NCBI RefSeq assembly: GCF_013839425.1 | Contig: NZ_JACDNP010000006.1 | Coordinates: 62,001-126,000, forward strand | Reading direction: 5' to 3' | Length of the DNA stretch: 64,000 nucleotides | Source: Halorhabdus salina | Lineage (GTDB): Archaea; Halobacteriota; Halobacteria; Halobacteriales; Haloarculaceae | Part shown: in pieces, positions 1 through 1,016 of the stretch | Numbering within the stretch: position 1 is the first letter of the stretch | Layout of the letters: each line of letters starts with the position of its first letter | The notes under the pieces: generated by a model | Seen by the model: only the letters and a program-made list of their open reading frames with translations | The model's database searches: none | What the model was told of the DNA's origin: nothing | Made by a program: the position numbers and the translations under genes

Positions 1-1016
1 CTGACGGTATAGTCCTCGATGATGAGGGGTTCGACCTCCGTCGTCCCGTTGACGTAGTTCATCGGCGCGTCGAACATGTCCATGATCTTGTCCCCACTTT
101 GCGTGTTCCCGGAAGCGATCGGGTCCAAGGAACTGAACGTGGACGAGGTGCCGTTGAGGACGTCGTCGTTCTGGAGGCTGTTGACGGAGTTGATCGCCTT
201 CGCCCGGGAGGGCCCCATCCCGCCCGGCGGGTTGTAATCGACGCGATCGTACCAGAACAGCTGGTCGACGGTGTGATAGACCGGCAACAGTGCCGCCGAG
301 TCCCACAGCGCCCGCTCGATCTTGACTGTCGCGTCGTCACGAGTACTCGTGGCCTCGTCACTCAGGCCGGGATTGTTCTGGATTCGGTCGAACTGTTCGG
401 TGACGTACTGGCGAACTTTTGGGTCGCCCTTGGTGTCTTCGGACCAGAACAGTGTCTCGCCGTTGGGTGTGTAGCTCTCGGCGTCGTAGATCGTGTTCTC
501 CGGGTCGACGAGCTGCAGGAAGTTCTGGGCGCCTGGGTAGTCGGCGACCCAACCGAGCGTGTAGGCCTCGTGGTTCCCGCTCTGGGTAGTTTCGATCAGC
601 GACCCGAAGTCCGAGTCGCTGATGTTCATGTTGATGTGTGCAGATTCCAGGCGTGCACGGATTGTGTTCGCCATCTCCTTCCATGCCGGGCTCTGGTACT
701 GTAGCCAGTCGAGATCGTAGTTGTTGTCCGGCCCGTAGCCCGCCTCTTCCATCACTCGTTTGGCTTCGCCGACTTGGGCCTCGTTGAGGCCGTAGGGGTA
801 CGAACTCGGCGGCTCGTATGCGTCACCTTCGGTTTCGGTGTCTCCACCACTGCCTTCGGTTTCGGTGTCTCCACCACTGCTTTCGGTTTCGGTGTCTCCA
901 CCACTGCTTTCGGTTTCGGTATCGCCGCCACCACAGCCGGCCAGTCCGATACTCACCGTTGCGGCTCCGGTCGCTTTGAGGAACCGCCGCCGGTTCATTT
1001 CATTGTCGTCAGACAT
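1..1016 (-). CDS. Tat lipoprotein, family 5 (peptide/oligopeptide) ABC substrate-binding protein, lobes in permuted order, partial
   Basis: Reading leftward from the ATG at 1016 the frame stays open to the window edge (338 codons). It starts with a Tat signal (RRRFLK, residues 9-14) and a lipobox (LAGC, Cys28), so it is exported folded and lipid-anchored. A four-copy Gly/Asp/Thr/Glu linker follows (30-65). Residues 66 to about 280 resemble the C-terminal lobe of SBP_bac_5 proteins (MEEAGYGPDN, EAYTLGWVADYPGAQNFLQL, GGMGPSR). From about 283 the protein reads like the mature N-terminus of the same family (SSLDPIASGN, then NGTTEVEPL). That order is reversed. It could be a circular permutation, or a duplication in which the first copy lost its N-lobe. 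Family and export are secure; whether it binds a ligand is unknown, and no permease gene is visible here. Confidence 0.8.
   Translation of the reverse strand, partial: MSDDNEMNRRRFLKATGAATVSIGLAGCGGGDTETESSGGDTETESSGGDTETEGSGGDTETEGDAYEPPSSYPYGLNEAQVGEAKRVMEEAGYGPDNNYDLDWLQYQSPAWKEMANTIRARLESAHINMNISDSDFGSLIETTQSGNHEAYTLGWVADYPGAQNFLQLVDPENTIYDAESYTPNGETLFWSEDTKGDPKVRQYVTEQFDRIQNNPGLSDEATSTRDDATVKIERALWDSAALLPVYHTVDQLFWYDRVDYNPPGGMGPSRAKAINSVNSLQNDDVLNGTSSTFSSLDPIASGNTQSGDKIMDMFDAPMNYVNGTTEVEPLIIEDYTV
826..933 (-). repeat. Four tandem 27-bp units encoding the lipoprotein linker
   Basis: Four head-to-tail 27-bp units begin at 826, 853, 880 and 907. The first three differ by a single base and the fourth has diverged. 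Each encodes nine residues of the form GGDTETESS or GGDTETEGS. The period is a multiple of three, so copy number can change without breaking the frame. This is an in-frame coding minisatellite in the flexible linker between the lipid anchor and the folded domain. Confidence 0.9.

Follow-up and report, generated by a model that had tools for sequence, protein, structure and literature searches.

A circularly permuted family 5 solute-binding protein gene of Halorhabdus salina is one of a recurrent set

A gene at the left edge of the window (the 64,000-nucleotide stretch of Halorhabdus salina DNA analyzed here) almost certainly encodes a permuted family 5 solute-binding protein (SBP) that is exported by the Tat pathway, is predicted to be anchored at Cys28, and serves the peptide-type ABC importer encoded downstream. 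It goes beyond a single odd gene, being one of a large set in which the same kind of rearrangement recurs. The gene is on the minus strand, and its open reading frame begins at window position 1016 and leaves the window at the left edge (1..1016, residues 1–338 of 630). In the adjoining genome DNA it continues for 877 bases to a stop at G000:C22:61124, giving a gene of 1,893 bases including the stop (1,016 in the window) and a protein of 630 residues. Along the chain, a Tat signal with lipobox Cys28 is followed by an acidic linker, then by the C-lobe (residues ~72–275), and finally by the N-lobe (~285–627).

The N-terminal segments, all on the minus strand, were assigned from the sequence. The Tat signal peptide and lipobox, MSDDNEMNRRRFLKATGAATVSIGLAGC, occupy 933..1016 and end at the predicted lipidation site, Cys28. 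The Pfam TAT_signal score is 21.4 bits, slightly under the cut-off of 22.7; the protein carries RRRFLK and LAGC motifs, the twin arginine and lipobox cysteine of haloarchaeal Tat lipoproteins, and R9, R10, G27, and C28 are invariant in 28 homologs with the same arrangement (type A, below). We infer Tat export and Cys28 lipidation from these features. A low-complexity acidic linker with GGDTETESS repeats follows (residues 29–66, 819..932), and residues 1–64 have pLDDT values below 50 in the predicted structure.

Both lobes were then recognized in reversed order, also on the minus strand. The SBP_bac_5 score of the protein is 190.7 bits (cut-off 32.4), with both parts of the profile present. Residues 63–170 match profile positions 242–360 (E value 2.8e-11), and phmmer aligned residues 73–207 to residues 342–479 of the solved OppA 4gl8 (E value 5.1e-9), so the first segment is the family 5 C-lobe. 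Its first half (C1, residues 73–190, 447..800) was delimited by Pfam, the 4gl8 alignment, and the order scan, and its second half (C2, residues 198–275, 192..425) by the order scan with segment queries and by doubled-query alignment. C2 ends in GGMGPSR, which the preliminary description had put at about residue 265 and which lies at residues 265–271. Residues 327–627 fit profile positions 1–261, which identifies the second segment as the N-lobe; its start (residues 290–338, 1..149) was placed by Pfam and structure, and residues 339–630 lie left of the window. Between the lobes, a junction defined by alignment with canonical relatives (residues 272–293, 138..203) connects the canonical C-terminal tail with the N-terminus of the canonical mature protein and adds hardly any linker, so the old termini would have to be close in the fold. 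The preliminary description had read a single frame with signal, linker, C-lobe, and then the start of an N-lobe, and the Pfam and phmmer matches uphold that reading, including the identity of its middle segment.

Each canonical segment is present once, swapped, in a single frame, and relatives in canonical order exist. The presence of each lobe once in swapped order indicates circular permutation and not duplication. Family 5 proteins usually run N-lobe first, an order that the window protein does not have; that order is usual without being strictly defining, and homology defines membership. By its profile matches, the window protein is a permuted variant of the SBP_bac_5 (OppA/DppA) family.

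Two other origins for the reversed order were weighed. A tandem duplication, with a first copy lacking its N-lobe followed by a complete second copy, would leave two C-lobes. Duplication is the usual route to permutation, and the window alone could not exclude it, and the preliminary description had proposed reading the sequence left of position 1. That sequence holds the N-lobe, a stop, and a permease gene: the frame ends at residue 630 right after the N-lobe, no further SBP lobe occurs in the 260 bases between the stop and the permease gene, and none of the permuted homologs listed has a second C-lobe. A complete second copy beyond the window is refuted by this sequence, and natural circular permutation, the other reading offered, is borne out. 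A chimera assembled from paralogous genes had also been suggested, and the genome is indeed in 25 contigs with two other SBP_bac_5 genes. Both paralogs are canonical, however, and at the threshold applied neither has a match to the permuted gene outside the signal region. The same junction recurs in many independent assemblies, including the single-contig genomes G002, G005, G008, and G018, within full-length colinear homologs at 92% to 47% identity, which excludes misassembly.

Homologs were searched for in 59 genomes from the genus, family, and order of the window. Full-length colinear homologs were found in other members of the genus (G001–G005, 78%–92% identity) and in G008 (68%), G018 (60%), G052 (49%, from another family), and G015 (47%), and other genomes of the set have the same segments in canonical order. 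Named carriers of the arrangement are Halobacterium salinarum DSM 3754, Halolamina salifodinae, Halonotius pteroides, and Halosimplex carlsbadense. In comparisons with near relatives, dN/dS is 0.10–0.18 overall and similar in the two lobes, both of which are under purifying selection. The junction is the least conserved stretch, and dN/dS is highest there (0.20–0.55).

Segment order across the haloarchaea was determined with two assays, the ordering of segments within frames and alignment to a canonical 559-residue core written twice. Three permuted arrangements were found: type A, that of the window gene, cut near core position 351 (30 loci); type B, cut near 470 (20 + 20 loci, plus L193); and type C, cut near 112 (two loci, L069 and L086). 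Type A spans the doubled query end to end, starting at core positions 341–354 and ending at 348–352, and for permutants in general the gap or overlap between start and end is mostly no more than a few residues, so that little is duplicated or lost. A junction profile matched 71 permuted loci over its whole length, with scores of at least 213 bits; these loci lie in 70 of the 392 genomes sampled from the order. Canonical proteins matched one half only, at no more than 173 bits. In the type C protein L069 (G178), TTVEQ closes the N-terminal linker and VTVEQ closes the chain, possibly a short duplication remnant at the cut or a chance resemblance.

No duplicated intermediate was found. One candidate, a 975-residue frame in G027 (L072/L162, contig G027:C1), proved instead to be a type B protein fused behind an N-terminal domain that resembles a kinase (Pkinase 24.6 bits, below the cut-off) and an internal Tat-like hydrophobic segment; its product resembles a membrane receptor whose binding domain is extracellular, and no importer genes lie beside it in the 15 kb examined. 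A plasmid search with query P0001 matched 1,591 records and showed no permutant. Nine plasmid records, all haloarchaeal, have at least 80% of P0001 covered, each in two pieces. Matches to P0001 in three non-haloarchaeal bacterial contigs (L150–L152) are in canonical order.

In a phylum-wide search, G558 was the sole genome outside the order to match across the junction. Its protein (L194:3732-5495) has a Sec signal, a C-lobe without the first helix, an N-lobe, and a PGF-CTERM anchor (19.6 bits, cut-off 18.8), so that the anchor is C-terminal in place of an N-terminal lipid. The class of G558, a second class of the phylum that may be Archaeoglobi-like, also contains canonical paralogs and a fourth arrangement, type D, in which the chain is opened behind the first helix of the C-lobe; permuted lipoproteins of this type, colinear with one another, are present in G491, G499, and G538. 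The type D genes (L223, L224, and L225) are divergent from a permease gene, unlike the canonical gene L226, which has its permease gene next on the same strand. Six more proteins of this class, with frames of 706–766 residues, have a type B-like order, to which Pfam alone is blind because the SBP_bac_5 model ends before the moved piece. Among the Chloroflexota, about 16 of 151 genomes gave a match to the full length of the junction profile, and all 15 of the matches examined are type C.

Trees were constructed from permuted sequences re-ordered to the canonical order. They support about nine independent permutations of family 5, at a few preferred loops, in archaea and Chloroflexota. This is a parsimony count with the canonical order assumed ancestral, as it is the order of solved bacterial family members; the minimum number of order changes is five for haloarchaea only, eight with the second class added, and nine with Chloroflexota. 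Type A forms one clade that extends across several families of the order. The type B protein L030 is nested among canonical proteins near L036/L037, apart from the main B clade, and the type D proteins L223–L225 are nested among canonical proteins of their own class, with L202 as sister. Constraint tests rejected a single origin of all type B proteins (P = 5e-5), a group of the two haloarchaeal type C proteins (P = 0.009), and a single clade of all haloarchaeal permutants (P = 1e-25), in quick trees with some long branches and for groups named from the same data. In two trees type A groups as sister to the main B clade, and one of them may therefore have given rise to the other. L086, L194, and the deep bacterial rows are placed with little certainty.

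The four cuts are at positions where insertions and deletions are frequent in 27 thinned canonical relatives (mean 0.45 versus 0.10 expected, P about 0.002), and sites A, D, B, and C are stretches between helices and strands when the secondary structure of the window model is transferred by alignment. The predicted structure of the window protein is of middling confidence (pLDDT 68, pTM 0.65). Structure prediction had been proposed as a check on the permutation, and it gave a partial answer: model residues 276–630, the N-lobe part, have an OppA-like fold and superpose on residues 1–335 of OppA (1b52; Z score 19.2, 3.5 Å, 313 residues), which puts cut A near OppA residue 335, while the C-lobe part, out of reach of a superposition by aligners bound to chain order, was identified from its sequence. 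The model of the type B protein L030 (pLDDT 53) was too poor for use.

Downstream of the window gene, Pfam identified an operon of permease, permease, ATPase, and ATPase genes (two BPD_transp_1 and two ABC_tran with oligo_HPY), the permease and ATPase types that characterize family 5 operons. Within the window, a tRNA-Val (gac) gene at 1500-1574 on the minus strand separates the SBP gene from a frame at 1713-2858 that was assigned by eye to an MFS-type transporter. In the model we propose, the canonical ends of the chain are joined and new ends created in a C-lobe loop near OppA residue 335, and the folded bilobed protein would be essentially unchanged by the permutation. Peptides would be captured between the lobes, closing as in OppA, and handed to the adjacent importer in the manner of OppA and DppA. 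The arrangement probably arose when the gene was duplicated in tandem and in frame and the N-lobe of the first copy and the C-lobe of the second were then lost, with the signal and linker kept.

H. salinarum has two peptide-importer operons that face each other, and its type A gene is the first gene of one of them. The location of this gene with respect to mdh, whose locus number in this species we assumed in placing the gene at dpp, points to dppA. The type A gene is thus probably dppA, with the dpp operon preferred over the app operon. In strain NRC-1, the dppA (2349) and appA (2358) clusters respond to salinity and dppA goes up in the cold (PMC1971269), and the operon headed by dppA is conditionally segmented (PMC4299497).

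The closest precedent is Tp0684 (MglB-2) of Treponema pallidum, a permuted protein of the 'Cluster Bc' clade for which glucose binding and a conformational change were reported (PMC4990184). Like the proteins described here, it is a naturally permuted binding lipoprotein that is tethered to the membrane and serves an ABC importer, and it occurs as a clade. MglB-2 is a bacterial Cluster B (Type I) sugar binder of an unrelated family with one reported cut site, whereas the present set belongs to the OppA/DppA family, occurs in archaea and Chloroflexota, and has several cuts and repeated origins; by profile and fold, the window protein is SBP_bac_5/OppA and not Cluster B. It shares the profile, the fold, and a Dpp/Opp-type operon with OppA/DppA proteins of SBP_bac_5 (PF00496) such as OppA 1b52, but has the C-lobe first. 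Canonical haloarchaeal DppA-like lipoproteins (L031 and L148, the latter from Haloferax denitrificans) have the same Tat lipobox and acidic linker, with segments at ~40%–50% identity, but are in the ordinary order and have no junction peptide. Permuted binding proteins also serve as biosensor scaffolds, but those are laboratory-made and the rearrangement in the window protein is natural. We found no report of permuted family 5, haloarchaeal, or archaeal binding proteins in the open-licence literature, which is weak evidence of absence. What sets the family 5 case apart is its recurrence and its shared sites, more than the single gene.

Two accounts of why the permutation persists are each compatible with the permutation itself. 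The one we favor, and judge somewhat the likelier to be true, is neutral drift, in which an accident was tolerated because the termini are close and the cut loops accept insertions and deletions, leaving function unaffected. The indel-rich loops at the cut sites (P about 0.002), the use of several different sites, the ordinary operon, and the ordinary selection on both lobes are all in keeping with it, although the long retention of type A across families and the repeated reuse of sites might need more than tolerance. A more tentative account is adaptive relocation of the tether, in which the anchored terminus was moved on the fold, altering presentation to the permease or export. The archaeal permutants inspected have a lipobox, the G558 protein having a C-terminal PGF-CTERM anchor beside the cut instead, and the Chloroflexota permutants inspected show a lipobox-like cysteine. 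The openings of the chain in type A and in the G558 protein flank one helix, and an anchor sits there in both, N-terminal in one and C-terminal in the other. Tethering was also proposed by the MglB-2 authors for their permutation (PMC4990184). Against this, canonical haloarchaeal relatives are anchored as well, and the cut sites lie in different lobes. It is a possibility, though a doubtful one, that recurrent permutation in tethered family 5 SBPs of archaea and bacteria repositions the anchor and changes how the protein encounters its permease.

Natural permutations have mostly been reported as single cases. In the set described here, a receptor family that is widely studied has undergone about nine permutations at a small number of loops, in archaea and Chloroflexota. 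Domain annotation misses such proteins, since in type B the Pfam model stops before the moved piece and they look normal. Close canonical and permuted versions of one gene offer a direct test of loop tolerance, tether position, and export as reasons for the origin and persistence of permutations. If the type A gene of H. salinarum is dppA, as is probable, published expression data already cover a permuted gene.
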